This document shows, one piece after another, positions 21,449 to 51,387 of a stretch of DNA of 64,000 nt. The translations under genes were made by a program, and so were the position numbers. The notes below the pieces were generated by a model. The model was not told the origin of the DNA. It was given only the letters and a program-made list of their open reading frames with translations, and did not search any database. Positions within the stretch are counted from its first letter, which is position 1; each line of letters starts with the position of its first letter. This DNA comes from an uncultured Acidobacteriota bacterium (lineage in GTDB: Bacteria; Acidobacteriota; Thermoanaerobaculia; Multivoradales; SZUA-115), in contig CALMKX010000193.1 in assembly GCA_937867335.1 (NCBI GenBank), positions 1-64,000 of the forward strand, read 5' to 3'.

Positions 21449-22846
<1,398 letters not shown>

Positions 22847-22864
22847 GGAAGGAGGGAAACCGAC

Positions 22865-27615: not shown

Positions 27616-27620
27616 GCGCC

Positions 27621-29946
<2,326 letters not shown>

Positions 29947-29958
29947 GGAACTCAAGCC

Positions 29959-30258
29959 ATGTCGGTGCACGTCTCTCCCCTTCGCGTCTACGTGGGCGTC
30001 TTCCTCGCCCTGATGGTGCTCACGGCGATCACTGTGGGCGTGGCTTTCGTCGACCTGGGGCCGCTCAACAACGTGGTGGCCCTGGGCATCGCGGTCACCA
30101 AGGCCACGCTGGTGGTGCTTTTCTTCATGCACGTGGCGCATTCGTCGCGACTGATCAAGCTGAGCGTGGTGAGCAGCATCTTCTGGTTGTTCCTGCTCTT
30201 CGTGTTCATCCTCGCGGACGACCTCACCCGCGGCCTCCTGGGAGTCGCTGGCAAGTAG
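29959..30258 (+). CDS. coxD: Cytochrome c oxidase subunit IV (CtaF/CoxD type)
   Basis: 99 residues with three membrane helices, matching the prokaryotic COX4 family (LRVYVGVFLALMVLTAITVGVAF, AVTKATLVVLFFMHVAHSSRL, VVSSIFWLFLLFVFILADDL). ATG 29959 is 12 nt after coxC. It is an accessory subunit of the aa3/caa3 oxidase and completes the coxBACD order. Confidence 0.9.
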   Translation: MSVHVSPLRVYVGVFLALMVLTAITVGVAFVDLGPLNNVVALGIAVTKATLVVLFFMHVAHSSRLIKLSVVSSIFWLFLLFVFILADDLTRGLLGVAGK

Positions 30259-35723: not shown

Positions 35724-35870
35724 GGGTGTACCTCCGGAAGGTTCGTACTGCCGATTCTCGGCGTCCGGCAAGCACCCCGGCTTCGCCCCCGGAGAGGGGT
35801 TTGAAGCATCTCAGCAGGTAGTCGGAAGGCTGCCCGTAGGGGTAGTGGTGAGCTGCAGGAGGCGCTCGGC

Positions 35871-36698
35871 TCAGAGTGTCCCTGCGCGCTTCAGAAAGGG
35901 CGAGATCGCCTGAGCCACCTGGGTCGGGGCCTCGAGTTGGAGCAGATGGGAGGCGCCCGGGACCTCCAGCGGCACGGCAGAGGGGAGCCAGGGCAGCAGC
36001 ACTTGTCGATGAGCTTCGACGAAGCGCGGTGCCGACCTGCTCCCCACCACCGACAGCACCGGGCAGCGAATCCACCGAGCGAGCTCCGGGGTGAAAACCC
36101 AGTGAGCGGCGGCCTCCGAGTCGCCTCGAAAGTAGGAGTCCGCGTCGCGTACGGCGAGCTCGAAGGCGTCGGGCGGTAGAGCACGTGAGATCGCCTGCCG
36201 GTAGCCGGTGCCGAATGCCAGCTCCAGCGATAGATCGACAGCTTGCTCGTGCTGGCCCAGCAGGTAGAGCCGGTAGGCGCGGAAGCGTACGGAGGCCACT
36301 TCCTCGTCTCCGGCGGCCACGAGCAGGGAAGGTGGCAAGGCGGTCTCGAGCAGGGTCAGGGAGAGCACTCGTCCGGGCTCCTGCAGGGCGAGCTGCAAGG
36401 CGATCAGGCAGCCGTAGGAATGGGCGACCAGATGAGCGCTCGCGTGGCCGAGAGCGGCCAGGAGAGAGCTCGCCTCCTGCGCCTGATCGCTGAGCGAGCA
36501 GGCGCCTGCCAGCCGAGAGCTGCCCGCGAAGCCCCGGCGGTGGTAGAGGATGAGGTGGAACTGGCCAGCCAGATAGGGATCTTCGAACAGCGGTCGAAGG
36601 GAATCGGCCAGAAACGAGCCGTGAACGAACAGCACCGGCTCTCCATGGCCTTGACTGGAATACTCGAGCGAGACGGAACCGACGTTCGCCACGGCCAT
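35871..36698 (-). CDS. Alpha/beta hydrolase
   Basis: 275 residues from ATG 36698 with GGAAGGAG about 9 nt upstream; an in-frame start at 36863 would add 55 non-conserved Arg/Gly-rich residues. Fold landmarks: VLFVHGSFLADSLRPLF (oxyanion HG), nucleophile elbow VAHSYGCL (Ser in A/GxSxG), and a C-terminal PGASHLLQLEAPTQVAQAI with the catalytic His. No lid or signal peptide is seen. It diverges from the MFS transporter and may belong to the biosynthetic cluster, or simply sit between it and the hydrogenase. Substrate unknown. Confidence 0.82.
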   Translation of the reverse strand: MAVANVGSVSLEYSSQGHGEPVLFVHGSFLADSLRPLFEDPYLAGQFHLILYHRRGFAGSSRLAGACSLSDQAQEASSLLAALGHASAHLVAHSYGCLIALQLALQEPGRVLSLTLLETALPPSLLVAAGDEEVASVRFRAYRLYLLGQHEQAVDLSLELAFGTGYRQAISRALPPDAFELAVRDADSYFRGDSEAAAHWVFTPELARWIRCPVLSVVGSRSAPRFVEAHRQVLLPWLPSAVPLEVPGASHLLQLEAPTQVAQAISPFLKRAGTL

Positions 36699-36856
36699 GG
36701 GCTCGTGCTCCTTCCGACGGTACAGCGAGCCCCTCGCGGAGCCGCCGAAGCCGCGGCCGCCCGATGGTAGCACCCTGTTCGAAACGCCGGCGGCCCGAGG
36801 CCGGCCGGGCCGAGCCGCGCTACGCCAGCACACTCGAGTGAGCCCATACTCAAAAC

Positions 36857-36887
36857 TTGACAAGGAACCTTACGCGCTGGCTAAAAT
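36857..36887 (+). promoter_or_regulatory. Candidate promoter of the MFS/biosynthetic cluster
   Basis: Perfect -35 TTGACA (36857-36862), a 19-nt spacer and TAAAAT (36882-36887, five of six matches). The long spacer lowers confidence. A 10-nt palindrome AGATCGATCT (36888-36897) would cover the start site and could bind a regulator. The leader to the MFS start would be about 140 nt. Confidence 0.5.
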
Positions 36888-36936
36888 AGATCGATCTTGT
36901 CCGAGGCAATTCGATTCCAGGCACGCTCGGCAGCGC

Positions 36937-36957
36937 CCTCTGCGCTGCAAGCAGAGG
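36937..36957 (+). other. Stem-loop in the MFS leader
   Basis: CCTCTGC (36937-36943) and GCAGAGG (36951-36957) pair across a 7-nt loop; one more G-C pair set can form around a bulged C. No T-run follows, so it is not an intrinsic terminator. It may be a leader structure of the exporter mRNA. Confidence 0.35.
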
Positions 36958-37035
36958 CGTTGTCCCCCTCCAAGAGCCGAGTTCTGGGAATCTCGGCTGA
37001 TCTGAAAGCAGTGCCCTGAGCCGCACACTCAGCCC

Positions 37036-38382
37036 ATGCCCTTGTCGGCCTCCATCCGCGTCTTTCTGCTGATCTGGCTCGGTCAGTTCATCTCCCAGTT
37101 CGGCTCGGGGCTCACCGCCTTCGCCCTGGGCCCGTGGGTCTACCTGCGGACCGGCTCGGCAACGCTGGTGTCCCTGGTGTGGCTGGCGAGCACCCTGCCG
37201 GACCTCCTGCTCTCGCCCCTGGCGGGCGCCCTGGTCGACCGCTGGAATCGCCGGCTCGCGCTCTTGATCAGCGACCTCGGGGCGGCTCTCGGCACTCTGG
37301 TCCTCGCCGTGCTGGCGGTGAGCGGAACTCTCCAGGTGTGGCAGGTGCTACTGGCTTGCATCTGGGTCTCTGCGTTCGTCGCGCTCCAGTGGCCGGCCTA
37401 TAGCGCGGTCATTCCCTTGCTGGTGTCCAGAGAACAGCTGGGGCGCGCCAGCGGGATGGTGCAGACCGCTGGCTCGATCGCTTCGCTGGCGGCACCGGCG
37501 GTGGCCGGTCTCTTGATCGCCACGGTCCAGCTCGGTGGCATCCTCTTCGTGGACTTCGCCACCTTCGTGGTCTCGCTGCTGACCCTGATCGTCGTCCGAG
37601 TTCCGGACGTCCTCCAAGACCGCAGCGAGACCGGTGCGCAGCCCTCTGTCTGGCAAGACCTCGCGGGCAGCTGGCGCTACATCCGCGAGCGGCGGGGCTT
37701 GCTGCTGCTGCTCTTCTACTTCGCTTCGGTCAACGTTTTCGTGGGCTTCGCCCAGGTCTTGCTAGTGCCTCTGGTGCTGAGCTTCACCTCCACCGCGGCT
37801 CTTGGCACCATGATGTCCCTCGGCGGCGCAGCGATGGTGCTCGCCAGCCTGTTTCTCAGCACCTCAGGAGGCTTCGAGCACCGAGTCCGCGCCGTGCTGG
37901 GGCTGACGGTCGCGCTCGGCTTCGCGGTGGTGCTGTGTGGTTCCAGGCCCAACCCCATCCTGGTTGGGGCCGGTGTGATTCTCGCCCTCTTCGTGACCCC
38001 CTTGCTGGAAGGCACCAGCCAGGTGATCTGGCATGCCAAGACAGCGCCGGAGATGATGGGACGAGTCTTCGCTCTGCGCAAGCTCGCGGCGCTCTTCCCC
38101 CGACCGATCGCCTATCTCGCCGCGGGCCCTCTGGCCGATCGGATCTTCGAGCCGAAGATGCGAGGGGGCAGCGGTTTGAGCGACTTACTCAGTCCCTGGC
38201 TGGGCAGGGGTCCCGGTCGCGGAACCGCCTTGCTCTATGTCTGTGCCGGAGCGCTCATCGTGGTGGTCGCGCTGGTAGGAGCGCTGAGTCCCAGGCTGCG
38301 AAACCTCGAGAAGGAAGTGCCGGACGCCGCCCCGACAGCCGCCGAAGAGACTGGCCAAGACTCCGTGAGAAAGACCGACTGA
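37036..38382 (+). CDS. MFS efflux transporter
   Basis: 448 residues with about twelve membrane helices. The order FLLIWLGQFISQFGSGLTAFAL, the LVDRWNRRLALLISDL loop after helix 2-3 and the ALQWPAYSAVIPLLV segment place it in the MFS_3 drug/siderophore exporter group (macrolide-efflux, EntS-like). It likely exports the product of the adjacent biosynthetic genes or a related toxic lipid. The start ATG 37036 has only a weak ribosome site. A C-terminal tail of about 30 charged residues is cytoplasmic. The acyl carrier protein gene follows after 154 nt with its own promoter. Confidence 0.87.
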   Translation: MPLSASIRVFLLIWLGQFISQFGSGLTAFALGPWVYLRTGSATLVSLVWLASTLPDLLLSPLAGALVDRWNRRLALLISDLGAALGTLVLAVLAVSGTLQVWQVLLACIWVSAFVALQWPAYSAVIPLLVSREQLGRASGMVQTAGSIASLAAPAVAGLLIATVQLGGILFVDFATFVVSLLTLIVVRVPDVLQDRSETGAQPSVWQDLAGSWRYIRERRGLLLLLFYFASVNVFVGFAQVLLVPLVLSFTSTAALGTMMSLGGAAMVLASLFLSTSGGFEHRVRAVLGLTVALGFAVVLCGSRPNPILVGAGVILALFVTPLLEGTSQVIWHAKTAPEMMGRVFALRKLAALFPRPIAYLAAGPLADRIFEPKMRGGSGLSDLLSPWLGRGPGRGTALLYVCAGALIVVVALVGALSPRLRNLEKEVPDAAPTAAEETGQDSVRKTD

Positions 38383-38478
38383 GCCAGCGCATTCGGTCCA
38401 CCGGGGAGGCGAGCTCCCGTCGCCGCGAAAGAGGTCTAATCCAGCAGCGAACGAGCTCCAGTCGCCCAAGACTCAATA

Positions 38479-38508
38479 TTGACGGCGTAGGCGCACAAAC
38501 GGTAAGAT
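38479..38508 (+). promoter_or_regulatory. Promoter before the acyl carrier protein gene
   Basis: TTGACG (38479-38484), an 18-nt spacer and TAAGAT (38503-38508). The start would be near 38515, a leader of about 20 nt before the GTG of the ACP gene. The surrounding 38470-38525 is AT-richer than the flanks. It would drive the ACP and first desaturase independently of the MFS gene. Confidence 0.55.
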
Positions 38509-38536
38509 AGAAGTTCATTACCGAGGAAGATGCCAC

Positions 38537-38776
38537 GTGTTGACTACGGCGACCGATGTGCTTCACGATTTGCAGGAAATCCTCCGTAACGAAGCCCGGC
38601 TCACGGTGGACGCCTTGAAACCCGAGGACAACCTCCAGGACCTGGGCCTGGACTCTCTGGCGCGAGTCCGGGTTCTGGTGGCGCTCGAGAGGAAGCACGG
38701 GATCGAAGTCACCGAGAAGCAAGCTGCGCAGATCACCACAGTGGGGGATCTGCTTCGCCTCGTCGAGACCCGCTAG
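38537..38776 (+). CDS. Free-standing acyl carrier protein
   Basis: 79 residues from GTG 38537 with GAGGAAGA upstream. The phosphopantetheine site is GLDSLARV, Ser40, in the usual position, and the four-helix ACP pattern is intact. It is not next to fab genes, so it is unlikely to be the housekeeping AcpP. With the fatty acyl-AMP ligase at 44.2 kb and two desaturases it probably carries the acyl chain while it is modified. It is the only carrier protein in the cluster; no PKS or NRPS module is present. Confidence 0.9.
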   Translation: MLTTATDVLHDLQEILRNEARLTVDALKPEDNLQDLGLDSLARVRVLVALERKHGIEVTEKQAAQITTVGDLLRLVETR

Positions 38777-38797
38777 GCCGCGGAAACGCGAGGTCCC

Positions 38798-39709
38798 ATG
38801 CCGAAGTCAGCGTCCGGCTTCGAAGCGCGCACCCTGCGGCGTCGCAAGCGCCACGTGCTGCTCATCACGGTGGTTCCTCTGGTGGGCTTCGTGGTGGCCG
38901 TGGTGATGCTGTGGAGGAAGGCGGTAGGGCCCCTCGAGCTGGGTCTGCTCGCCGGGATGTGGACCCTCAGCGGTCTGGCCGGAACGGTGGGCTTTCATCG
39001 CCTCTTCGCCCATCGCTCGTTCCAGGCGAGGACCTCAGTCCGCGTGGCACTGGCCGTTGCCGGCTCCATGGCGGGGCAGGGCCCGCCCATCTACTGGGCC
39101 GCCTTGCACCGGCAGCACCACCAGTTCAGCGATCAGGAAGGGGATCCCCACTCTCCCCACCTCTTCGGCGACAGCTTCCTGGCCATGGTGCGTGGCCTCT
39201 GGCATGCACATATCGGCTGGATGTTCCGGCACGATCTACCCGATTCCTCCCGTTATACCCCCGACCTTCTGCAGGACCCCGTGCTGGCGAAAGTCAACCG
39301 GCTCTACTTCGTCTGGCTCGCAATTGGCCTGGCGATCCCGGCCGGGATCGGGGGTCTGGTGCACGGTTCCTGGCTCGGCGCCTGGTATGGCTTTCTGTGG
39401 GGAGGTCTCGCCCGGCTGTTTCTGGGCGAGCACCTGATCTGGAGTGTGAACTCGCTCTGCCACTTCTTCGGCACCCGCCCCTTTCGGCTGGACGATCACA
39501 GTGCCAACAACACCTGGATGTCGGTGCTCACCATGGGCGAATCCCTGCACAACAACCACCACGCCTTTCCAGGCTCGGCCCGGTTCGGCCTGCGCTGGTG
39601 GCAGCTCGATCCAGGAGACTGGCTGATCTGGTCGCTCGAGAGGCTAGGCCTGGTCTGGGGAGTCAAACGGCCATCCAAGCAGACGATCGTCGCCAGGATG
39701 GCCCGGTAG
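38798..39709 (+). CDS. Delta-9-type membrane fatty acid desaturase
   Basis: 303 residues with four to five membrane helices and the three His boxes of stearoyl-CoA-type desaturases: HRLFAHR (HxxxxH), HRQHH (HxxHH) and HNNHHAFP. A di-iron site and an external electron donor are expected. It is separated from the ACP gene by 21 nt and has GAGG 4 nt before its ATG. The substrate could be an acyl-CoA, lipid or the adjacent acyl-ACP; context favours the last. It ends 27 nt from the convergent P450 gene. Confidence 0.9.
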   Translation: MPKSASGFEARTLRRRKRHVLLITVVPLVGFVVAVVMLWRKAVGPLELGLLAGMWTLSGLAGTVGFHRLFAHRSFQARTSVRVALAVAGSMAGQGPPIYWAALHRQHHQFSDQEGDPHSPHLFGDSFLAMVRGLWHAHIGWMFRHDLPDSSRYTPDLLQDPVLAKVNRLYFVWLAIGLAIPAGIGGLVHGSWLGAWYGFLWGGLARLFLGEHLIWSVNSLCHFFGTRPFRLDDHSANNTWMSVLTMGESLHNNHHAFPGSARFGLRWWQLDPGDWLIWSLERLGLVWGVKRPSKQTIVARMAR

Positions 39710-39736
39710 GAAGCCGGGCGATGGGTGTGGGCGGGC

Positions 39737-41119
39737 TCAGGCCTCGGGCCTGCGCCCGACTCGAACGGGTAACCCGTTCGAAGGCACGAACGTGAAGCCG
39801 CGACGGACGATCTTGATTTCACCTCGGTTGCCGGGCTCGAGAGAGAACCGAGATAGCATCTCGGCCAGAACGGTTTTCATTTCGAAGTTCGCGAACGACG
39901 GGCCGATGCAGATATGAGAGCCGCCCCCAAACGGGAAATATTGACTGGTATCGGGCCTGCCCGCCAGAAACCTCTCCGGGCGGAAGGCGAGGGGCTCGGC
40001 GAAGGACTCGGGCCTGCGATGGGCGAGGTAGGTGCAGGGCGCCACGAACCAGCCGGCGGGAATCTCGTGCCTGGAGAGCTCGAGGGGCTGCGCAACCCAT
40101 CGCACTACCAGAGGGAAGACCGGATTCAAGCGCAAGGTCTCGTCGATCACGGCCATGGTATAGGGCAGCTCCCGCAGCTTCTCGAGTGTCACGCGTCCAC
40201 TGCCGAGGACTCGACGGTGCTCGGCGATCACTTGTTGATGCACCTCGGGATGGGCGAGCAGCCGGTGCACGGTCCAGGCGAGAGCGATGGCCGTGGTCTC
40301 CTGGCCGGCGACCAGAAGCGTCATCATCTCGTCGCGCAGCTCCAGGTCGGAGAAGGGAGTGCCGCTCGCGTCGCTCGCCCGGATCAATCGCGCCAGCACA
40401 TCGGCCCGCCCCGCGCTGCCGTCCCGTCGTGTCTCTTCGATCTGCCGGTACAACTGACGATTGATCTCCGCCTCCAGCCGCATGGCTCTGCCCCAGCTGG
40501 TGAGCGGGCCGAGATTCAGGCGAAACAACGGGAAACGCATGATGGGCTTGCCCATCAGGCTGAGGAAGCGGGTCAGGCGATCGCCCATCGAGTGAATTTC
40601 TGCCGGATCGCTCAAGCCGAAGATCGTGCGCAGGATCACTTCCAAAGTGATGCGCTGCATCTCCGGATGGAGAGCGAAAACCCGCCCCACGGGCCAGCTT
40701 GCCAGCACGCGAAGGGTGACTTCGCGGATGGTTTCGAGATATTGCTCGAGATTGGGACCGTGCAAGGTGGGCTGCAGGATTTGCCTGTGCTGCGTGTGCG
40801 CGGGGCCGTCGAGCATCAACAAAGAGTTCTCGCCGACCAGCATTTGAACGCTCTGGTTGCCAGACAGCAGCTGGCCCGGAGGGGCACGGAACACGCGCTG
40901 GACATCGTTCGGCGAGCTCACCACAACCACCGGCGGGGAGTCGGGAAAGCGCAGCGCGAAGCAATCACCATGAACGCGCGAGCACTCTTCCAGCAGCTCG
41001 ACCGGGTGCATCAGCCAGCGCCAGAGCTGGGCGTAGGGACCGAGACTCGGGCCCGGAGGAGCCGCGCCGGCTACGGTCGCCGAGCTTGCAGCCTCCGGGG
41101 GCGTGCTGGTCTGGCTCAT
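39737..41119 (-). CDS. Cytochrome P450
   Basis: 460 residues. Landmarks: I-helix LLVAGQETTAIALAW (oxygen-activating AGxETT), ExxR in IDETLRLNP, the FRPERFL (PERF) motif and the heme loop FPFGGGSHICIGPSFA with the proximal Cys. It resembles CYP110-like bacterial P450s that often oxidise fatty acids or lipids. Its start has a strong AGGAGG site 7 nt upstream. It is transcribed opposite to its neighbours, divergently from the halogenase-like gene across 152 nt, so the two may share a control region. No ferredoxin or reductase partner is nearby. Confidence 0.93.
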   Translation of the reverse strand: MSQTSTPPEAASSATVAGAAPPGPSLGPYAQLWRWLMHPVELLEECSRVHGDCFALRFPDSPPVVVVSSPNDVQRVFRAPPGQLLSGNQSVQMLVGENSLLMLDGPAHTQHRQILQPTLHGPNLEQYLETIREVTLRVLASWPVGRVFALHPEMQRITLEVILRTIFGLSDPAEIHSMGDRLTRFLSLMGKPIMRFPLFRLNLGPLTSWGRAMRLEAEINRQLYRQIEETRRDGSAGRADVLARLIRASDASGTPFSDLELRDEMMTLLVAGQETTAIALAWTVHRLLAHPEVHQQVIAEHRRVLGSGRVTLEKLRELPYTMAVIDETLRLNPVFPLVVRWVAQPLELSRHEIPAGWFVAPCTYLAHRRPESFAEPLAFRPERFLAGRPDTSQYFPFGGGSHICIGPSFANFEMKTVLAEMLSRFSLEPGNRGEIKIVRRGFTFVPSNGLPVRVGRRPEA

Positions 41120-41271
41120 CTCACACCTCCTAAAGTTACTGATACGCTAGCACAGCGGGTTTTGCTGGAACAACTCTGCTGTGGGGTTGAAACATCCATC
41201 TTGCACTTCGGTGACGCCTCGAGGAGTGGGTGATCGGCTCGCTTCAGCGGCGCAAGTGAGAGGAGCCCGTC

Positions 41272-42690
41272 GTGGAAAGTAGAGATATCGTGGTTCTTGG
41301 GGCCGGGATCTCGGGAAGCTCCACAGCCATCCGCCTGCAGGAGGCGGGGCTCAACGTTCTGCTGGTGGACCAGGCGGATTTTCCACGCGACACCGCAGGG
41401 GAGGGTATCTCTCCGGCGATAACACCGTTTCTCGCCGAGCTGGGCATTCTGGACACCATCAACCAACCTCCATTTGTCAAGAAACGGTCCTTCCAGTTCG
41501 TGTCGCCGAGCGGAGACAAGGGCTACACCGCTGTCGATCTCAGCAAGCCGCCCTACAAAGATGGTGTCCACAGCTACCCGTGGGGCTTCAATGTGCAGCG
41601 CTACTATTTCGATATGGTGTTCCTCGATCGTGCGAAAGCGGTCGGCGCCGAGGTGCGCTTGAAGACGCGGGCACGCAACCTGGTCCTGGACTCCGAGGGA
41701 GTGGTGACGGGCGTGGCCTTGGTGGCTCCGGATGGCCACGACTACGAAGTCAAGTCCCGGCTGGTGATCGACTGCACCGGCCGACAGTCGATGGTGGCGC
41801 GCCAGCTGGCGTTGCGCGCTCCCCTGGAGCATGTCTTCGAGGGACAGTGGGCCAATTTCGCGGTTCGTTGCCACTTCCGCAACGTGAACATGCAGCCGCT
41901 GATGGCGGACAACCCGCGCTACGACCCTGCCACGGTGAATATCTTTCCCAGCAACGATTGTTGGCTGTGGTTCATCCCGATCAACCTCGAGCAGGGATTG
42001 ATCAGCATCGGCTTCGTCGCCCGTTCCCGGGTGAGCAATTTTTTCGAAGGGATGCCCAACAAGAAGGAAGGCTACCGCGAGCTGTTCGCCCGCCACCAGG
42101 TGGTGCGCAAGGTGATCGAGAAGGCCGAACTCGACGACAACATCGTGAGCACTGGGCGGCTGGGCCACATGAACAGTCGAATGGCGGGAGACGGCTTCCT
42201 CTGTGTGGGCGACGCGGCCTTCTTCGCCGACCCGGCCTGGGGCACGGGAGTGACGATCTGCCTGGCGAGCTCGAAGATGGCAGCGGAGACCGCCGTTGAG
42301 GCCGCCCGCCAGGAGGACTTTTCGAACGGTTTGCTGCAGCAGTACGAGCGCAGGTATCGGGAGATGATCCGCTGTCCCTTCAACAGCATTCGGGCCTACA
42401 ACTACTACTACAACGATACCGAGTACATCAACTTCATCACCCGACGTCTGGCCAAGAACCAGAACGATATGGACATGCTCGGCGCTGTGCTGTTCGACTA
42501 TGCCAGCCACGAGGAGTTCCAGAGCTGGACGTTCCGCGAATTCAAGGCCTATGTCGCGGAGACCGGCCGGATGCCTGCGATGGAGCGGGTTTCGCAGTTG
42601 GACTTCGACACCGGCCGCTTCCCGGACGGTGAGGTGGGAGTGGCGAGCGGGCGGCGCGAGGGTAGCGAGCTGCCTGCGGGGGTGGCATGA
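41272..42690 (+). CDS. Flavin-dependent halogenase-like oxidoreductase
   Basis: 472 residues from GTG 41272 with GAGAGGAG upstream. An FAD-binding Rossmann start (VVLGAGISGSSTA) and the GDAAFFADPAWGTGV FAD motif place it among class A flavoprotein monooxygenases. Two halogenase features are present: WLWFIP (231-236), matching the WxWxIP signature, and a Lys (K71) in FVKKRSFQF aligned with the catalytic Lys of the FxxKxGxxF motif in phenolic and pyrrole halogenases. The GEGISPAI stretch takes the place of the GES(x)xP loop. Chlorination or bromination of an ACP-bound intermediate is plausible, but hydroxylation cannot be excluded. The SDR start overlaps its stop by 4 nt. Confidence 0.83.
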   Translation: MESRDIVVLGAGISGSSTAIRLQEAGLNVLLVDQADFPRDTAGEGISPAITPFLAELGILDTINQPPFVKKRSFQFVSPSGDKGYTAVDLSKPPYKDGVHSYPWGFNVQRYYFDMVFLDRAKAVGAEVRLKTRARNLVLDSEGVVTGVALVAPDGHDYEVKSRLVIDCTGRQSMVARQLALRAPLEHVFEGQWANFAVRCHFRNVNMQPLMADNPRYDPATVNIFPSNDCWLWFIPINLEQGLISIGFVARSRVSNFFEGMPNKKEGYRELFARHQVVRKVIEKAELDDNIVSTGRLGHMNSRMAGDGFLCVGDAAFFADPAWGTGVTICLASSKMAAETAVEAARQEDFSNGLLQQYERRYREMIRCPFNSIRAYNYYYNDTEYINFITRRLAKNQNDMDMLGAVLFDYASHEEFQSWTFREFKAYVAETGRMPAMERVSQLDFDTGRFPDGEVGVASGRREGSELPAGVA

Positions 42691-43424
42691 CGGCCAGCGA
42701 GCCTCAGGCTCCCCGTGGCTACCTGGTCGCCGGGGGATCTTCGGGCATCGGCCGGGCTCTGGTAGGGGAGCTCGCTGGGCGAGGCTCGAAAGTGGTGAGC
42801 CTCGACCGCAGCTTGCCGCCCCAAGAGCCGGCCGGGGCCGTGACCTACCTCGTGGATCTGCTCGACGAGGACGCCGTGCAGGCCGCCGTCGCCGAGATCG
42901 CCGGCCACCATCCGGAGCTCGATCGTCTGGCTCTGGTGGCCGGGGTGGCTTTTGCCACACCTTTCCTGGAGCTCTCGGGAGAGGAATTCCGGCGACAGGT
43001 GGCGGCCAACCTGGACCTTGCTTTCTACCTCAGCCAGGCCGCGGTGAAGGCCTGGCCCCTGAGATCGATGGTGCTCTTGTCGTCGAGCAGCGTCTACGGT
43101 GGGATCGGCGCCAGCGCTTCCTACATCGCCGCCAAGGCGGGAATCCTGGGACTTACCCGCGCGCTGGCGTTGGAGCTAGCACCGCGGGGAATCCGAGTCA
43201 ACGCAGTCGTGCCCGGCCCGGTGGATACGCCGCTGTTCCGTGGCCTTTCGACCGCTACCGAGCGCCGGATCCTGAGCGAGCTGACGCCCCTCAAGCGGCT
43301 GGCGGAGCCGGAGGCGGTGGCCGAGGTGATCCGCTTCCTGCTGGATGAGGGTTCCCGGCACATGACCGGCCAAACCGTACCGGTGGACGGTGGCCTGTCC
43401 TTGGCTTTCCGCCCGTCGCTTTGA
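42687..43424 (+). CDS. Short-chain dehydrogenase/reductase, FabG-like
   Basis: 245 residues. Cofactor motif AGGSSGIGRAL, the catalytic SSSSVYGGIGASASYIAAKAG set (Ser, Tyr, Lys of YxxxK) and the C-terminal MTGQTVPVDGGLSL typical of classical SDRs such as 3-oxoacyl-ACP reductase. NAD(P)H-dependent reduction or oxidation of a keto/hydroxy group on the cluster intermediate is inferred. It is translationally coupled to the halogenase-like gene (ATGA). Confidence 0.9.
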   Translation: MTASEPQAPRGYLVAGGSSGIGRALVGELAGRGSKVVSLDRSLPPQEPAGAVTYLVDLLDEDAVQAAVAEIAGHHPELDRLALVAGVAFATPFLELSGEEFRRQVAANLDLAFYLSQAAVKAWPLRSMVLLSSSSVYGGIGASASYIAAKAGILGLTRALALELAPRGIRVNAVVPGPVDTPLFRGLSTATERRILSELTPLKRLAEPEAVAEVIRFLLDEGSRHMTGQTVPVDGGLSLAFRPSL

Positions 43425-43452
43425 TGGATGGTTCCCCTTCTGGAGGCTTGAG

Positions 43453-44247
43453 ATGAGTACCGCCACTGCGCTCGCCCACTCGGTGATGGGTCAGGAGAAC
43501 GGCAGTCGAGTCGTACTGCTCAACCCGATGGGCAGCAGCGCTCTGGCCTGGGTGCGAGTGGCCGGCGAGTTGGCCAGGAAGTACCAGGTGGTGCAGATGG
43601 ACTATCCAGGCTTCGGTGCCACGCCGAACCAGGAGGCCGCGTCGATCGCCGAACTCGCCCAGCGAGCCAGCGCCACCCTGAAGCAGCTTCCGCCCAAGCC
43701 CGCCCACCTTGTCGGCTATTCGCTGGGCGGCTGGGTGGCTCAGCAGATGGCGCTCCAGGCCGAGGTCGAGGTCGCCTCCTTGCTGCTGATCGGATCGGCG
43801 GATCGAATCTACCCGATGGGCATGCGGATGCTCGAACAATGGCTCCAGCTGATCGACGTCGCAGGGATCGAAGCCACCCTGGCCGAGATCGCCTTCTGGA
43901 ACTTCAGCGCCGCCAGCTTCGAGAAGGTTCCGGACCTTTTGCAGAGGTTCGTTCGAGGCGGTCTGGCGAGCTTCGGCGACACCGAGATCTTCAAGCACCA
44001 GATGCGACTTTGCCACGCCTACTCGACGCGGCCGCCGCTCGAGCGGATCACCGCTCCCACGCTTGTGGCCCGCGGAGAGCTCGATTTCTTCTACCCGCAG
44101 TTCTGCTCGCAGGCGCTGGCGGATGCCATTCCGGGCAGCCGGATGGTCGAGATCGCGCAGACCGCCCACGCGGTGCTGTGGGAGAACCCGGAAGCCGTGG
44201 CGAGGCTGGCCTGCGAGTTCGTCGGAGAGCTCGAGCGTGAGCCCTGA
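43453..44247 (+). CDS. Alpha/beta hydrolase, possible thioesterase of the cluster
   Basis: 264 residues from ATG 43453, with GGAGG 7 nt upstream; an upstream in-frame start at 43390 is not needed. Catalytic features: nucleophile elbow VGYSLGGWVA (GxSxG), acid in ARGELDFFYP and His in AQTAHAVLWENPEA. The cap region (about 120-190) is helical. Placed between the SDR and the fatty acyl-AMP ligase, it may release the acyl chain from the ACP or hydrolyse an ester; this is inferred from context. Confidence 0.85.
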   Translation: MSTATALAHSVMGQENGSRVVLLNPMGSSALAWVRVAGELARKYQVVQMDYPGFGATPNQEAASIAELAQRASATLKQLPPKPAHLVGYSLGGWVAQQMALQAEVEVASLLLIGSADRIYPMGMRMLEQWLQLIDVAGIEATLAEIAFWNFSAASFEKVPDLLQRFVRGGLASFGDTEIFKHQMRLCHAYSTRPPLERITAPTLVARGELDFFYPQFCSQALADAIPGSRMVEIAQTAHAVLWENPEAVARLACEFVGELEREP

Positions 44248-45985
44248 GCCGACCCTGTTCGATGTCTTGTTGAGCCGACGCGGCGACGATCGGCCGGACT
44301 CGGGTCGCCACTTCTACCAGGCCGCGACGGACAGCTTTCGCCACAGCAGCTACTCCCAGCTGATCGGCGTCGCCTTCGGCCTGTCCCACCTCCTGAAGGC
44401 CGAAGGGGTGGCGGGTCGAGATCCCTGCGTGGTGTGCTGTCGCAGCCTGCCGGCCGTGCTGGTGGGCTTCTACGGCGCCCTGGCGAGAGGGGCGCTGCCG
44501 GTGGTGGTGCCAGCCCCGAAGAGCTTCCAGGGCAGCCAGGCCACCACCGACCGCCTGGCCGCCCTCCGCGCCAAGCTCGGCGACCGGGCGGCGTTGCTGG
44601 TGGAAGCCGGATTGATCGACGACGAGGGGGTCGAAGCGACCCGGCAGTGGCGCACGATCGTGCTGCCTGCCGATCCGATCGAAGCGGAGCTCGAGCCCCC
44701 GGCGGACAGCTTCCGCCCCGGTGCAGAGGACCTAGCCTATCTGCAGGAAACCAGTGCCTCCACCGGCTCCGGCAAGCTGGTGGCGATCTCCCACCGCAAC
44801 CTCCGCACGGCCCTGGAAGCGATTCGGCTCGGCTCCAGCGCCTCGGACGACGAGACCGTGGTGTGCTGGCTACCGCTCTACCACGACATGGGCCTGGTGG
44901 GCTGCGAGCTCTTCTCGCTCTGGTGGGGCTATCCCCTGTATCTCCTGACACCGTTCGACTTCCTGAAGCGGCCTCTGCGGTGGCTGAACACCTTGAGCCG
45001 GTACCGCGGCACCATGTCTCCCGCACCGGACTTCGGCTACCGCTACTGCGCTCAGGCGGGGAGCGCGGCAGACCTGGAAGGGCTGGACTTGAGCCGCTGG
45101 CGAGTGGCCTTCTCGGGGGCCGAGCCGCTGCATCTCTCGACGGTGCAGAAATTCCTGGATCGCTTCGAGCCCCACGGCTTCGAGGCTCGGGCCCTGCTGC
45201 CCTGCTACGGCCTGGCCGAGGCCACGCTGGCGGCCACCTTCGTGGGCGCCACGGAACTGCCCAAGTACGCCTGCGTGGAGCGAGTGCCCTCGGGGTTCGG
45301 CAGCACGGTACCGGTGCGCGGCACCTACGACGTGCGCGACCGTTCGCCGGAAGCGGCTCCCCGGCCGGGAGAAGTCGCCGCCTTCTCGGTGGGACGGCCC
45401 GTTCCGAGGATCGAGATCGAGCTGGTCGACGAAGCGGGGCGGGCGCTTCCCGGCGAGGATCTGCTCGGTGAGATTCGCGTCCGAGGAGCGCCGGTGGCCC
45501 GCGGCTACGTCGCCGCGAGCGGCGAAGGCGTCGAGCCTTTCGAGGACGGCGTCCTCACCGGCGACCTCGGGTTCCAGCACGGTGGCGAACTCTACGTACT
45601 GGAGCGTCTCAAGAACGTAGTGATCCGCCACGGCGAGAACCATCTGGCGAGCAACCTGGAGGAGCGGCTGGCGCAGCGGCTCGGCCTGCCGTTCGACGCC
45701 GTGGCGATTTTCGAGGCCGACCTGCTCAGAGGGTCAGGAGAGGTCGTCGGCTTGATTGAGATTCCTGCGCGATCGCAGCTGGCGGGTCTGGTGGAACGGC
45801 TGGCCCAGGCCGCCGGCTTGCTGGAGGAACTGGTACTCGACCGCGTGCTTCTCACTCCGCCGCGGGCGATTCCGCGAACCACCAGCGGCAAGAAGCAGCA
45901 CTATCTTTGCCGGCAGCTCCTCGCCCTCGGCGAGCTTCCAGTCCTGCAAGAGGTCGCCGTCGGGCACAGAGGTGAGATGCCATGA
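44237..45985 (+). CDS. Fatty acyl-AMP ligase (FAAL-like)
   Basis: 582 residues from GTG 44237, overlapping the hydrolase end by 11 nt. Adenylating-enzyme motifs: the ETSASTGSGKLVAISH P-loop region, LPLYHDMGLVGCELFSLWWGY, and ALLPCYGLAEATLA. The HDMGL block followed by PFDFLKRPLRWLNTLSRYRGT matches FAALs and their stand-alone acyl-ACP ligase relatives more closely than acyl-CoA synthetases. The C-terminal RTTSGKKQHYLC has the terminal Lys region. Likely role: activate a fatty acid as acyl-AMP and load it onto the cluster's ACP. No carrier domain is fused to it. Confidence 0.88.
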   Translation: MSPEPTLFDVLLSRRGDDRPDSGRHFYQAATDSFRHSSYSQLIGVAFGLSHLLKAEGVAGRDPCVVCCRSLPAVLVGFYGALARGALPVVVPAPKSFQGSQATTDRLAALRAKLGDRAALLVEAGLIDDEGVEATRQWRTIVLPADPIEAELEPPADSFRPGAEDLAYLQETSASTGSGKLVAISHRNLRTALEAIRLGSSASDDETVVCWLPLYHDMGLVGCELFSLWWGYPLYLLTPFDFLKRPLRWLNTLSRYRGTMSPAPDFGYRYCAQAGSAADLEGLDLSRWRVAFSGAEPLHLSTVQKFLDRFEPHGFEARALLPCYGLAEATLAATFVGATELPKYACVERVPSGFGSTVPVRGTYDVRDRSPEAAPRPGEVAAFSVGRPVPRIEIELVDEAGRALPGEDLLGEIRVRGAPVARGYVAASGEGVEPFEDGVLTGDLGFQHGGELYVLERLKNVVIRHGENHLASNLEERLAQRLGLPFDAVAIFEADLLRGSGEVVGLIEIPARSQLAGLVERLAQAAGLLEELVLDRVLLTPPRAIPRTTSGKKQHYLCRQLLALGELPVLQEVAVGHRGEMP

Positions 45986-47055
45986 AAGTGAAAGGCGCAG
46001 AGCTGGACCTGGGTCAGCCCGACGACAAATATCGTTCGCGTCAGGCCTACGCCAACGAGCTGCGGGCCCATCTGCCCAAGGAAGTCTTCCAGGCGGTTCC
46101 TCGGCGCCTGCTCTGGCTGATTTTCTACTATGCGATCATAAGCCTCGGAGTAGTGGCCATTTTTCGCTGGGAGAACCCGGTCGTACGTTTCTTGGCCGCG
46201 GTGATGATTGGCCACTGCCAGGGTGTGCTGGGTTTCCTCGGCCACGAGATTCTGCACGGCACCGTGGTGCGCCGGCGCCTGCCCATGCTCTGGCTCGGAG
46301 GGCTGTGCATGTGGCATTGGGGCATCCACCCGAAGCACTGGATCGCCTGGCACAATCGCCAGCACCATCAGTTGACCAACCACAGCTTCGACGATCCCGA
46401 CTGTTTCGGCCATGAGCGGCTCTATCACCACAGCACCTGGCTCAGGGTGCTGGAGAAGTTCCTGCCTGGTTCTGGCACTGCGCGCAGCGCCCTCTTCCTG
46501 TTCTTCTGGTTCTCGTTCCACACCGTCTGGGTCGCCTTCAAGCATCCGGGTGTGTTTCAAGGGCATGCCGAGGCCCGTACCGTGCGAGCTTTCATCTTCG
46601 GTACGCAGATCGGTTGGATCACACTGGCTGGTTGGGCGCTCGGCTGGCAAGGCTTCTTCTTTCTCTATTTGATCCCTTTGGCCTTCGCCAACCTGATCAT
46701 GATGAGCTACGTCGCCACCAATCACTTCATCAGCCCACTCACCGAGGACACCAACGATCCCCTGCTCAACAGCCTGACGGTCCGATCCACACCTCTGCTT
46801 GAGAGGCTGCATCTCTACAACAACTTCCATGTCGAGCATCATGTTCTGCCGTATGTGAACCCAGTGCATGGCGCCGAGGTGGCGCGCAAGCTCAAGGAGC
46901 TCTGGCCCCAGAAGTATCAGGAGATGTCGCATTGGGCAGCGCTGCGACGGGTCTATCGGAGCCCCAAGTTCTATCTTCGAAACACGGTGCTGGTGAACCC
47001 GCGCACGCGGTTCACGGCCGAAACGCTCTTGGCCCATTACCTCGAGATGGATTGA
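45982..47055 (+). CDS. Second membrane fatty acid desaturase/hydroxylase-like enzyme
   Basis: 357 residues, four to six membrane helices. His boxes: GHEILHGTVV (HxxxH), HNRQHHQLTNH (HxxHH) and NNFHVEHHVLP (HxxHH), which belong to the FADS/DesA branch, unlike the stearoyl-CoA type enzyme upstream. The same branch contains desaturases, hydroxylases, ketolases and acetylenases. The ATG overlaps the FAAL stop (ATGA). FAAL, desaturase and ACP genes in one cluster recall the JamABC cassette that makes terminally modified acyl-ACP, but this rests on gene content only. Confidence 0.87.
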   Translation: MKVKGAELDLGQPDDKYRSRQAYANELRAHLPKEVFQAVPRRLLWLIFYYAIISLGVVAIFRWENPVVRFLAAVMIGHCQGVLGFLGHEILHGTVVRRRLPMLWLGGLCMWHWGIHPKHWIAWHNRQHHQLTNHSFDDPDCFGHERLYHHSTWLRVLEKFLPGSGTARSALFLFFWFSFHTVWVAFKHPGVFQGHAEARTVRAFIFGTQIGWITLAGWALGWQGFFFLYLIPLAFANLIMMSYVATNHFISPLTEDTNDPLLNSLTVRSTPLLERLHLYNNFHVEHHVLPYVNPVHGAEVARKLKELWPQKYQEMSHWAALRRVYRSPKFYLRNTVLVNPRTRFTAETLLAHYLEMD

Positions 47056-47092
47056 CACAGCGGCAACCGCGCCGTCTGAGTGAGGAGGGAAG

Positions 47093-48904
47093 ATGACGCT
47101 TAGGACCATGGGCGACCTCGTCCTCGAGCTGGCGAGGAGAGAGAAGCCCGAGCAGCTCCTCCACAAGGTGGACGGTGGCTGGCAGGCGACCTCGTCGACG
47201 GATCTGGTGGCGAAGGTGGGCCGACTGGCTCGAGGACTCGGGCAGCTCGGCGTGGCCAAGGGCGACCGGGTGGGCTTGATCGCGACCAACGGGCCTCTGT
47301 GGGTGGCGATCGACCTCGCCACCCTGCTGTCCGGAGGCGCCATGGTGGCGGTGGACGGGGCCTTCACACCAGGTCAGTCGGCTGCCATTCTGAACGACAG
47401 CCGAGTTCGCTTCCTCTTCGTGGAAGGAAGTGAGCAGCTGGCGAAAGTGCTCGCGCTCCGATCCGACGTGCCCACTCTCGAGGCGATCGTGGCGTTCGGT
47501 GGAGCTGAGCCCGCAGGCGGCGCGCTGGAACTCGAGTCGCTCCTCGCCGAGCAACCGGACTGCGCCTACGCGGACCTCGAGGGCACGGCGCGGAACCTCG
47601 AGCCCGCAGACCTGGCCACCATCGTGTACACCAGTGGCACGACGTCTCGCCCCAAAGGGGTGATGGTGAGCCATCGCAACCTAGCGTTCGTGATCGAGGG
47701 CGCGGTACGGGCGATGCCCCTCGAACCTTCGTGGACCGCCCTCTCGATGTTGTCCCTGTGCTACCTGTTCGAGCGGGTGGAGGACTACGCCTACCTCCAT
47801 GCCGGCTGCACGATTGCCTATGCCGAGTCGGTATTGACAGGGATCGCCAACGCTCAGGAGGTCAAGCCGCACGTCTTCGTCACGGTTCCACGCATCCTCG
47901 AGCGCGTGGTCTCGGCCGTCGAGGAGCAGTTCGCCGCCGTGCCCGGCGGTAGCCAGGCGCTGGCTGCGGCCCTCGGCGTGGCCGAGGCGAGTCTGCCCTA
48001 CCGGTTGCGAGGCGAGCCGCTTCCCGCGGAGCTGGCCGAGCGGCTCGAGTCGCCGGCGTGTGCCGCGCTGGGAAGGGTTCGTGCCGCCTTCGGCGGGCGT
48101 CTGGAGTTCTGCATGGCCGGGGGAGCTCCGCTGCCCCCGCGGGTGGCGCGGTTCCTCTGGAGCGCCGGTGTTGCCGTTCACGAGGGCTATGGCCTCACAG
48201 AAACGTCGCCCTCCGCGGCCGTGAACCGGCGTGGTGCTGTGAAGTTGGGCACGGTGGGGCAGGCTTTCCCCGGCGTCGAGCTGCGCCTCGGCGAGGAAGG
48301 GGAAGTGCTGCTTCGCGGGCCCAACGTGATGATGGGCTATACCGGCGAGCCGGAAGAGATGTCCAAGGTGATCGACGCTGAGGGTTGGCTCCATACCGGC
48401 GATTTGGGCACGATCGATGAGGAAGGGTTTCTGACTCTCACCGGGCGCTTGAAGAACGTGATCACCTGCGCCTACGCCGACAAGTTGAGCCCGGAGCCTG
48501 TCGAGCACCTGATCAAGGAGAGCCCGTACGTTCAAGAGGCGATGATCGTGGGGGAGGGCAGGCCGTTCTTCGGCGCCCTCCTGATCCCGGACTTCGCAGC
48601 TCTGAAGGCCTGGGCCCAGGCGCGAGGCCTGGGTGCGGACTCGACTCCCGCCGAGCTGGTGGCAGACGAGCGGGTCGAGGCTCTCTATCGTCAGGAGCTC
48701 GAAGCCACGAACCAGCGCTCGCCGTTCGATCCAATCGATGGCTTCGTCTTGCTGGCCGAGCCTTTCACGGTCCAGGGCGGCGAGCTGACTTTCACCCAGA
48801 AGCTGAGGCGGCAGGCCATTCTCGACAAGCACCATGCGCTGATCGAACAGATGTACCAGCGACAGCAGGGTGCGATCGAGACGCGTCAACGCTCTCGCCA
48901 CTGA
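47093..48904 (+). CDS. Long-chain acyl-CoA ligase-like adenylating enzyme
   Basis: 603 residues with GAGGAGG before the ATG. Motifs: IVYTSGTTSRPKGVMVSHRN (A3/P-loop), YGLTETSPS (A5), WLHTGDLGTIDEEGFL (A7) and GRLKNVITCAYADKLSP (A8), with the terminal TFTQKLRRQAI carrying the catalytic Lys. It resembles FadD15/ACSL-like enzymes, so it is distinct from the FAAL at 44.2 kb. It may supply acyl-CoA, reactivate the released product, or act in general lipid metabolism. It follows the second desaturase by 37 nt. Confidence 0.88.
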   Translation: MTLRTMGDLVLELARREKPEQLLHKVDGGWQATSSTDLVAKVGRLARGLGQLGVAKGDRVGLIATNGPLWVAIDLATLLSGGAMVAVDGAFTPGQSAAILNDSRVRFLFVEGSEQLAKVLALRSDVPTLEAIVAFGGAEPAGGALELESLLAEQPDCAYADLEGTARNLEPADLATIVYTSGTTSRPKGVMVSHRNLAFVIEGAVRAMPLEPSWTALSMLSLCYLFERVEDYAYLHAGCTIAYAESVLTGIANAQEVKPHVFVTVPRILERVVSAVEEQFAAVPGGSQALAAALGVAEASLPYRLRGEPLPAELAERLESPACAALGRVRAAFGGRLEFCMAGGAPLPPRVARFLWSAGVAVHEGYGLTETSPSAAVNRRGAVKLGTVGQAFPGVELRLGEEGEVLLRGPNVMMGYTGEPEEMSKVIDAEGWLHTGDLGTIDEEGFLTLTGRLKNVITCAYADKLSPEPVEHLIKESPYVQEAMIVGEGRPFFGALLIPDFAALKAWAQARGLGADSTPAELVADERVEALYRQELEATNQRSPFDPIDGFVLLAEPFTVQGGELTFTQKLRRQAILDKHHALIEQMYQRQQGAIETRQRSRH

Positions 48905-48932
48905 ACGCCCTGGCGCCGGCGCTGCACAGATT

Positions 48933-48939
48933 AAGGAGG
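48933..48939 (+). promoter_or_regulatory. Ribosome-binding site that sets the permease TTG start
   Basis: AAGGAGG sits 6 nt before TTG 48946. No ATG or GTG in frame lies between this site and the first conserved helix, so initiation at TTG is well supported. Confidence 0.75.
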
Positions 48940-48945
48940 AACTCG

Positions 48946-51387
48946 TTGGAGAGCTTGAAGCGGGCCATTCGCTCGCTGCGACAGAGTCCGCTGGTGGCGG
49001 TGCCTTCGATCTTGTCGTTGGCTCTCGGCATCGGCGTGACCACGGCGCTTTTCAGTGTGCTCAACACGGCGCTTCTGAAGCCGCTGCCGGTGCGGGATCC
49101 GCAATCGGTGGTGGTGGTTTACACCCAGGACGCGAAGAACCCGGGCTTCCTGGGGGTTTCCTACCCCAATCTGCGGGATCTGCGCGAGAAGGGCGACGCC
49201 TTCGCCGAGTTGGCGGCCTTTCAGTGGACCACGCTCGGCCTCTCCGGAAACGCCGAGCCGGAGCAGATTTTCGGCCAAGTGGTCTCCGGCAACTATTTCG
49301 ACCTGCTGGGCATCCGCATGGCCCACGGACGAGGCTTCCTGCCCGAAGAGGATCGCTCGCCGGGAGCCCAGCCGGTGGTGGTGCTCAGCCATTCCCTGTG
49401 GGCCCGGCGCTACGGCGCGGACCCCTCGATGGTGGGTCGCCAGGTGGTCCTGAATCGCCAGCCCTATACCGTGGTGGGCGTGGCGCCGCCGGAGTTTCGC
49501 GGCACAGACGTCGGGCGTCAGCCGCAGCTCTGGGTGCCCCTGATGATGTACCCGGTGGCGTTTCCCTACCCCTACAACACCTGGGTCGAGAGCCGTCGCG
49601 CCGTGATGTTCAACGTCCTGGCCCGACTGCGGCCCGGTACCGATCTCGCGGGCACGGAGGCGCGGGCGAATGGGCTCGCCCATCGCCTCGAAGAGCAGTA
49701 TCCCGAGGACAACAGAGGGCGAAGCTGGAAGCTCGTTCCGCTCGCCCAGGCCACCATCAACCCGGCCCAGCGCGGAGCTGTGGTGGGTGGAGTCGGCTAC
49801 CTGCTGGGGGCCGCGACGCTGGTCCTGCTGCTGGCGTGCGCGAACGTGGCGAGCCTCCAGCTGGGGCGGCTGATCGCCCAGCGCAAGGACATCGCGATCC
49901 AGGTCGCCTTGGGCGCTTCGCGCTGGCGGGTGGTTCGGAACTTCTTGGTCGAGAGCCTGCTGCCTTCAGCGCTCGCGTGTGTCTTGGGGCTGTTGATCGC
50001 CCTTCTTGGCCTGCGCTTGCTGACCACCATCCGCCCACCCACCGAGATCCCGACCAGCCTGGAAGTGGCCATCGACTCCCGGGTCCTGCTGTTCGCGCTG
50101 GGACTGACCTTGTTGGTGACCCTTCTCCTGGGTCTTACGCCGATCTTGCAGGTGGTCGGAACCGATCTCGTGAGCGCGCTCAAGGGAGCGGTCAGAGTGC
50201 GCCGGGCCACGGGCGCGGGGCTCCAGGGCCTGTTGGTGGCGGTCCAGGCCGGTTTGAGCTGCTTCTGCCTGTTGGCGGCGACGCTGTTCCTGACCAGCCT
50301 GGCCCAGGCCGAGCGGGCGGACCCAGGTTTCGAGGCGGGACACCTAGCCGTGGTGTCCTTCAACGCCGGGGCTCAAGGGCAGCCCGAGGAAGACGTCCAG
50401 GACTTCTATCGCCGAGTGGTCGAGCGAGTGGAGGCACTGCCGGGCGTGCGCTCTGCCGCGCTCGCCACGGCGGTGCCGCTGTCGGGCGGCGCGGTACCCA
50501 GAACCGTGTTCCTGGAGGGCCAGAGTGAAAACCTTTCGGCAGGTGGAGTTCTGGTGCAGGTTGATCCGATCGGCGTGGACTACTTCCAAACGCTCGGCAT
50601 CGCGCTAGAGGCAGGAAGAACTTTCAGCCGGGACGACCGCAAGGAGACAGAACCGGTGGCGGTGGTCAACCGAGCCATGGCCGAACGCTTCTGGGCGGGC
50701 AGGGGCGCGATCGGCAAGCGGTTCCGATTCTTCGGCGAGGAGTCCTACCTGAGGGTCGTGGGGGTTGTGAACGATTCGAAGTACAACACCCTTGGCGAAG
50801 AGCCTCAGGCCTACCTTTATTTGCCTCTCGCCCAGAATTACTCCCCGCGGGTGACCCTATTTGCCCGAGTCGAAGGCAACCCGACGGCCTTCCTCTCCAC
50901 TCTGAGGCGCGAGGTTCAGCAGCTAGACACGGCCCTTCCGTTGACCAACCTCTCGGCGATGAGGGATGTGCTCGCACACTCGCTCTGGGCCCTGGCCGCG
51001 AGTGCCCGGCTCGTGGAGGGGTTCGCTCTGCTCGCTCTGGCTCTGGCCGGCATCGGGGTTTTCAGCGTCACGACTTACATGCTCGGCCAGCGGGCACCGG
51101 AACTGGGGCTTCGAATGATCCTCGGCGCCGATCGATCCCAGGTGCTCGGGCTACTGCTGCGGCAAGGGCTCTGGCCCGTCGCTTTGGGCATGGGCCTGGG
51201 GCTGCTGGCTTTTCTGGGCACTCGCCGGTTGGCGGCGAGCGTGCTCTACGGAACCGGGCAGGTAGGCCTGCTAGCATCACTGGGCGCGGCGGCCGTCCTC
51301 GCGGTAGTGGCCCTGCTCGCCGTGGCGCTGCCGGCCCGCCAGGCGGCCCGCCTCAACCCCGCGGGCTCATTGCGATCGGGAGTCTGA
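48946..51387 (+). CDS. ADOP-family duplicated orphan ABC permease (FtsX/MacB type)
   Basis: 813 residues from TTG 48946. Two copies of the MacB periplasmic core plus FtsX membrane domain: an N-terminal helix (about 20-40), a periplasmic core (about 50-250), three helices (about 280-390), then a second core and a final three-helix set (about 680-800). The SPLVAVPSILSLALGIGVTTALFSVLN start and the PPEFRG/LWVPLMM core are characteristic of acidobacterial duplicated orphan permeases. No ATPase gene is adjacent, hence 'orphan'. It may export a lipid or peptide, possibly the cluster product. Its end overlaps the convergent DUF1232 gene by 21 nt. Confidence 0.88.
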   Translation: MESLKRAIRSLRQSPLVAVPSILSLALGIGVTTALFSVLNTALLKPLPVRDPQSVVVVYTQDAKNPGFLGVSYPNLRDLREKGDAFAELAAFQWTTLGLSGNAEPEQIFGQVVSGNYFDLLGIRMAHGRGFLPEEDRSPGAQPVVVLSHSLWARRYGADPSMVGRQVVLNRQPYTVVGVAPPEFRGTDVGRQPQLWVPLMMYPVAFPYPYNTWVESRRAVMFNVLARLRPGTDLAGTEARANGLAHRLEEQYPEDNRGRSWKLVPLAQATINPAQRGAVVGGVGYLLGAATLVLLLACANVASLQLGRLIAQRKDIAIQVALGASRWRVVRNFLVESLLPSALACVLGLLIALLGLRLLTTIRPPTEIPTSLEVAIDSRVLLFALGLTLLVTLLLGLTPILQVVGTDLVSALKGAVRVRRATGAGLQGLLVAVQAGLSCFCLLAATLFLTSLAQAERADPGFEAGHLAVVSFNAGAQGQPEEDVQDFYRRVVERVEALPGVRSAALATAVPLSGGAVPRTVFLEGQSENLSAGGVLVQVDPIGVDYFQTLGIALEAGRTFSRDDRKETEPVAVVNRAMAERFWAGRGAIGKRFRFFGEESYLRVVGVVNDSKYNTLGEEPQAYLYLPLAQNYSPRVTLFARVEGNPTAFLSTLRREVQQLDTALPLTNLSAMRDVLAHSLWALAASARLVEGFALLALALAGIGVFSVTTYMLGQRAPELGLRMILGADRSQVLGLLLRQGLWPVALGMGLGLLAFLGTRRLAASVLYGTGQVGLLASLGAAAVLAVVALLAVALPARQAARLNPAGSLRSGV

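Follow-up and report, generated by a model that had tools for sequence, protein, structure and literature searches.

A probable fatty-acid tailoring cluster built on a fatty acyl-AMP ligase, a stand-alone acyl carrier protein and two unlike desaturases in an uncultured Acidobacteriota bacterium

The combination of a fatty acyl-AMP ligase (FAAL), a desaturase and an acyl carrier protein (ACP) is the published signature of alkyne and polyyne cassettes and has been mapped on a tree of 4,990 sequences (PMC8406139). In that survey, alkyne potential is assigned where domains for FAAL, fatty acid desaturase and ACP occur together in a 30-kb span, and polyyne potential where two more desaturases, a thioesterase and a rubredoxin are added to this set (PMC8406139). 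The taxa listed there are Proteobacteria, Actinobacteria, Cyanobacteria, Planctomycetes and Entotheonella; no word beginning with "Acidobacter" occurs in the main text (PMC8406139). Our literature searches on FAAL/desaturase clusters of Acidobacteria and on the alkynyl halogenase JamD yielded little or nothing. Here, we analyzed a gene block at 35871-51387 of a 64,000-nucleotide stretch (hereafter the window; positions 1 to 64,000 of contig CALMKX010000193.1, assembly GCA_937867335.1) from an uncultured Acidobacteriota bacterium. The block had been noted as an unusual combination of a FAAL-ACP-desaturase set with a halogenase and a P450, lacking a megasynthase. The FAAL-ACP-desaturase core is not unusual, as it corresponds to the published cassette signature and further examples were found in this study: sets with desaturase, ACP, FAAL, cytochrome P450 and hydrolase occur on plasmids of scattered phyla and in genomes of the GTDB collection.

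All twelve genes originally predicted for the block are present, and their families were confirmed by Pfam and NCBIfam (Table 1). The proposal of a lipid or fatty-acid tailoring cluster built on FAAL, ACP and desaturases without a megasynthase is supported, and we consider the locus to be, probably, a horizontally assembled orphan cluster in which a preformed fatty acid is tailored on a cluster-encoded ACP. This reading is carried by the gene content, intact motifs, the kinship of one desaturase (DesA), a contig free of ketoacyl synthases, and island-like composition and synteny. Neither polyketide synthase (PKS) nor nonribosomal peptide synthetase (NRPS) had been seen in the block before, which agrees with our results: there are 13 ketoacyl-synthase matches elsewhere in the genome but zero on this contig, and NRPS absence follows from the Pfam identities of the block genes, with no separate scan. 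A PKS-fragment reading was rejected because the contig has no ketoacyl synthase. The only match to the phosphopantetheinyl transferase (PPTase) family in the genome lies on another contig and could prime the ACP.

DesA provides the clearest link to known cassettes. Its histidine boxes (HRLFAH/HRQHH/HNNHH) are intact, and its match in the PDB is acyl-CoA desaturase 1. In a careful tree, window DesA grouped with seven cassette desaturases with support 99/96 (8 rows) and with twelve of them with support 98/88 (13 rows), and zero stand-alone desaturases fell inside either clade. A faster tree of all rows again recovered this cassette group (support 92-94); JamB was not part of the careful tree. 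The clade members, whose genes adjoin those for ACP and FAAL, come from Nocardia, Rhodococcus, Pseudonocardia, Thalassospira and Dendronalium, followed by Pleurocapsa, Scytonema, Tistrella and Polaromonas. Among the best 80 DesA relatives from all GTDB species, most are stand-alone, and the top-scoring ones mostly adjoin ACP and FAAL genes.

Several of these cassettes share a recurrent arrangement that includes a methyltransferase of the CMAS (cyclopropane synthetase) family. In Pseudonocardia and Thalassospira, the order is desaturase-ACP-methyltransferase-P450-hydrolase-FAAL, and the Pseudonocardia hydrolase belongs to the Thioesterase family. Loci of this kind (L numbers denote the loci compared here) were found in Pseudonocardia (L046:11944-17823), Nocardia (L054, L055), Rhodococcus (L050, L058) and Thalassospira (L047:9815-15983). 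They probably make cyclopropane or methyl-branched acyl-ACP, and our literature search found no paper describing them. A metagenome-assembled genome of Scytonema sp. (L053:6119-13500) carries FAAL, desaturase and ACP genes, three tandem matches to CMAS-type methyltransferases, and then a second FAAL gene. CMAS enzymes act on double bonds. Their presence in most cassettes of the DesA clade suggests alkene formation on an ACP-bound chain as the reaction of these desaturases, so that DesA more likely forms an alkene than an alkyne. The window contig itself has no match to the cassette CMAS.

The ligase encoded at 44237..45985 is predicted to be a FAAL rather than an acyl-CoA ligase, as judged by its NCBIfam assignment, its PDB scores (207 bits against a solved FAAL vs about 49 bits against CoA ligases) and its intact adenylation motifs (TSxST/YGLAE/TGD/SGK). 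The gene directly preceding it encodes ABH2, in the position held by the hydrolase in the Pseudonocardia and Thalassospira cassettes.

DesB is a membrane desaturase of another kind with intact histidine boxes (HEILH/HNRQHH/HVEHH). It scored 214.8 bits against NCBIfam NF052549, below the cut-off of 500, and a PDB search gave no match. Compared with the third polyyne desaturase, it shows 24% identity (E 1e-5), and both match Bacillus desaturase models. A DesB relative (33%) is encoded on a Streptomyces virginiae plasmid (L012:3395-6092), where its gene overlaps a gene of the nitroreductase/quinone reductase family and a cyclopropane synthase gene beside a Tn3 transposase. An Azospirillum plasmid cluster (L013:3178-13065) holds two more relatives, accompanied by a type I PKS gene, a PPTase and an efflux pump.

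Flavin halogenases of variant B, among them PltA and Mpy16, require substrates bound to a carrier protein, and a tunnel motif FxxPxxSxG has been described for flavin halogenases (PMC8407142). The flavoprotein of the block (Hal) has ChlB4, Mpy16 and PltA as its best PDB matches, at 27-29% identity and with a very long branch. The GxGxxG motif, the lysine and WLWFIP (WxWxIP) are present in Hal, but the tunnel motif reads FADPAWGTG, with Ser replaced by Gly. Since the Lys, GxGxxG and WxWxIP are also kept in common homologues across the phylum, GxGxxG and WxWxIP are weakly diagnostic, and WxWxIP was rejected as proof of a halogenase. Hal joins the carrier-protein halogenases in the tree only weakly (support 78/76), long branches meeting there. 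Unlike Hal, a typical homologue encoded in another genome of this order has 8zop, 3e1t and CmlS as its best matches. It is plausible that Hal is a carrier-protein-dependent flavin enzyme given its best PDB matches, and the shared motifs, the lost Ser and the weak tree support make halogenation no more than a possible activity. The term halogenase-like used in the original prediction is fair, and halogenase would not be, the motif set being incomplete. A bolder and rather unlikely proposal is that Hal is a flavin halogenase that accepts a tethered aliphatic substrate; it would halogenate the chain once this has been desaturated to an alkene or alkyne and while it is still bound to the ACP, and so take the place of the usual CMAS methyltransferase.

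From these genes, we infer each reaction of the following pathway as well as the order of its steps. FAAL would adenylate a free fatty acid and load the acyl chain on the ACP, after which DesA, judging by its clade, would desaturate the bound chain to an alkene. DesB could add a second unsaturation, either at another position or on a lipid or CoA form. The P450, the SDR and the PltA-like flavoprotein would then oxidize, and possibly halogenate, the activated positions. ABH2 may act as a thioesterase releasing the acid, the acyl-CoA ligase could re-activate the product, and the MFS protein may export it.

The surroundings of the block were compared with related genomes. Contig neighbours match same-order genomes at about 40-81%, which indicates that the contig is native to the lineage. 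The G+C content at third codon positions (GC3) is 0.816 in the cluster genes vs 0.870 in the flanks (Mann-Whitney p = 1e-4). The operon that we take to be alternative complex III (17.6-25 kb in the window) adjoins UbiA in two other genomes of the order; here the pair is separated by a hydrogenase and the cluster, with UbiA at 52082. The drop in GC3 and the broken adjacency suggest that the cluster is an acquired island, although neither a tRNA anywhere in the window nor direct repeats on the flanks were found to mark its borders. The respiratory operon as a whole (alternative complex III/cytochrome oxidase type) spans 17594-30258 and lies >20 kb from UbiA here. The [NiFe] hydrogenase (small and large subunits and cytochrome b; 32135-35771) shares 62-81% identity with a hydrogenase from a different family within the order (genome G004) and has no full match in the two same-family genomes.

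Conservation of the gene set in relatives had been proposed as a check and was only partly borne out. Neither the order nor the phylum sample shows conservation of the full set, whereas the FAAL-DesA-ACP core turns up again in other phyla and, in one case, in another sampled genome of this phylum. Simple conservation was rejected: at E 1e-15, DesB has no match in the 71 other genomes of the order that were searched (0/71) or in 395 others of the phylum-wide sample (0/395). In the one other sampled phylum genome with the core, the DesA homologue (46%) adjoins FAAL. This locus (L178:6565-14551; G408:C108) encodes in a row a carrier protein-thioester reductase protein, FAAL, the DesA homologue, an ACP-like frame and an unrelated second desaturase.

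Table 1. Genes of the block at 35871-51387 in the window
Gene product	Coordinates	Strand	Evidence and remarks
ABH1, alpha/beta hydrolase	35871..36698	-	Pfam Abhydrolase_1; start revised from sequence; divergent from MFS gene; membership uncertain
MFS exporter, Mef/H+ antiporter-like	37036..38382	+	Pfam MFS_1; NCBIfam TIGR00900, under cut-off
Stand-alone ACP, 79 aa	38537..38776	+	Pfam PP-binding; GLDSL motif intact
DesA, SCD/DesC-type membrane desaturase	38798..39709	+	Pfam FA_desaturase; three histidine boxes; cassette clade
Cytochrome P450	39737..41119	-	Pfam p450 3.6e-73; haem motif FGGGSHICIG intact
Hal, FAD halogenase-like flavoprotein	41272..42690	+	Pfam Trp_halogenase 2.2e-19, FAD_binding_3
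SDR oxidoreductase, FabG-like	42687..43424	+	Pfam adh_short_C2; YxxxK intact; 4-nt overlap with Hal
ABH2, alpha/beta hydrolase, proposed thioesterase	43453..44247	+	Pfam Abhydrolase_6 and Thioesterase; GYSLGG intact
FAAL, 582 aa	44237..45985	+	NCBIfam best match is FAAL
DesB, second, unlike membrane desaturase (Bacillus DesB/Delta-10-like)	45982..47055	+	NCBIfam NF052549; three histidine boxes
Long-chain acyl-CoA ligase, FadD11-like	47093..48904	+	Pfam AMP-binding and AMP-binding_C_3; NCBIfam; catalytic motifs intact
ADOP-family permease	48946..51387	+	NCBIfam TIGR03434; membership uncertain

The gene coordinates of the original prediction held overall, with small corrections to three starts inferred from the sequence: ABH1 probably starts at 36698 rather than at TTG 36863, ABH2 at 43453, and FAAL at GTG 44237, overlapping the ABH2 stop. 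The gene overlaps and strong ribosome sites reported earlier were also recovered, comprising three overlaps (Hal/SDR 42687-42690, ABH2/FAAL 44237-44247 and FAAL/DesB 45982-45985) and four clear ribosome sites (upstream of the P450, ABH2, acyl-CoA ligase and ADOP genes). The seven genes from Hal to ADOP are co-directional, and MFS-ACP-DesA lie upstream in the same direction with the reversed P450 gene between; because of the latter, the block is not one operon. The translational coupling of Hal with SDR and of ABH2 with FAAL and DesB supports its reading as a unit. The nucleophile context of ABH1 is AHSYG, not GxSxG. The ADOP permease scored above the TIGR03434 cut-off (785 vs 622 bits) and shares the low GC3 of the cluster; no ATPase partner adjoins it. 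Members of this family typically occur in Acidobacteriota, which points to that phylum for the window.

Several observations weigh against a single acquired tailoring cluster. Only DesA is clearly kin to the cassettes. The window FAAL is divergent and falls outside the clade of cassette FAALs (support 98; 17/18 cassette FAAL rows inside; JamA not in the tree), a placement that is weak because its branch is long, and the ACP, P450 and ABH2 are barely similar to their cassette counterparts (23-26% identity for the P450 against cassette and polyyne P450s). The P450 gene is on the opposite strand, and ABH1, MFS and ADOP could be chance neighbours. In addition, the same full gene set was found in no other genome searched, which leaves no conservation argument for the unit. 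The block might also be pictured as a mosaic island of two parts that serve different pathways, a short MFS-ACP-DesA segment and an independent operon running from the flavoprotein to the ligase, with ABH1 and ADOP unrelated. The P450 that splits the block, the differing phylogenetic signals of FAAL and DesA and the lack of the full set elsewhere would fit this picture. However, the normal acceptor of a FAAL product is a carrier protein, and the block does contain an ACP gene; a GC3 below that of the flanks is common to the cluster genes, and relatives of ACP, FAAL and DesA co-occur elsewhere; we consider a mosaic improbable.

In a true alkyne (jamABC-type) or polyyne-like cluster, DesA (and DesB) would introduce a triple bond into the ACP-bound chain, and halogenation by the flavoprotein, at the alkyne or next to it, would yield a haloalkynyl fatty acid. 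Such a cluster would agree with the genome-mining criterion of FAAL, desaturase and ACP (PMC8406139). The P450, hydrolase and MFS protein also resemble those of polyyne clusters such as that of Streptomyces Mg1, and the third polyyne desaturase is a distant relative of DesB. This explanation is nevertheless unlikely in view of the closest DesA kin, which occur in cassettes with a methyltransferase of a family acting on alkenes, and of the polyyne desaturases, which fall outside the supported DesA clade; the contig also lacks a rubredoxin and a third desaturase, and FAAL is outside the cassette clade. Modification of membrane or storage lipids (acyl-chain adaptation) instead of a secreted metabolite appears quite doubtful. 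Acyl-lipid/acyl-CoA desaturation is a known activity of the families of both desaturases, an acyl-CoA ligase is present and one DesB relative adjoins a cyclopropane synthase, but specialized metabolism is the typical setting for FAAL/ACP, a P450 and a halogenase-like protein, and the distribution is patchy and strain-specific.

Under the favoured reading of an acquired cluster that tailors a pre-made fatty acid on its own ACP, the locus can be placed among described systems. With the jamABC alkyne cassette it shares a FAAL, a membrane desaturase, a stand-alone ACP and a chain that is a supplied fatty acid, and its FAAL, desaturase and ACP domains lie within 30 kb. It differs in having a FAAL outside the sampled cassette clade, no downstream PKS, and an extra DesB, P450, SDR and flavoprotein, a comparison made by gene content and sampled cassettes and not with JamA/B/C themselves. 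Polyyne clusters (caryoynencin, cepacin, collimonin and protegencin) likewise have no megasynthase in their core and contain FAAL, ACP, several desaturases and a hydrolase, and the polyyne-type-looking locus of Streptomyces Mg1 (L049) has P450 and MFS genes as in the window; ABH2 is not similar to the L049 hydrolase. The polyyne core needs three desaturases, a thioesterase and a rubredoxin, whereas the window has a flavoprotein, an acyl-CoA ligase and only two desaturases, these being the only ones on the contig, and tblastn found no rubredoxin match on the contig, nor does the 33-53 kb region have a double CxxC motif. A straight polyyne reading was rejected on these grounds. Closer are the desaturase-ACP-CMAS-P450-(thioesterase)-FAAL cassettes, which share the DesA clade (about 50% identity), an ACP, a P450 and a hydrolase adjoining FAAL, but have a CMAS methyltransferase, another gene order and other proteins only about 23-35% alike. 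No cassette found here contains a homologue of Hal, which resembles ChlB4 and the variant B halogenases PltA and Mpy16 in its retained WxWxIP and lysine and departs from them in its low identity, long branch and altered tunnel motif. The exact gene combination was found nowhere else among the genomes searched. FAAL/ACP fatty-acid cassettes are extended to a lineage unmentioned in the published alkyne survey (PMC8406139), paired here with a flavoprotein of carrier-protein halogenase type. Should Hal halogenate an ACP-bound unsaturated chain, halogenated fatty acids would be made here by a new route; should it do no more than oxidize, the cluster would still illustrate the exchange of tailoring enzymes in such cassettes. 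Although it has the alkyne domain set, its lack of the full polyyne set and the position of its FAAL outside the cassette clade place the window outside the alkyne and polyyne families, as a variant of the FAAL/ACP fatty-acid tailoring kind.

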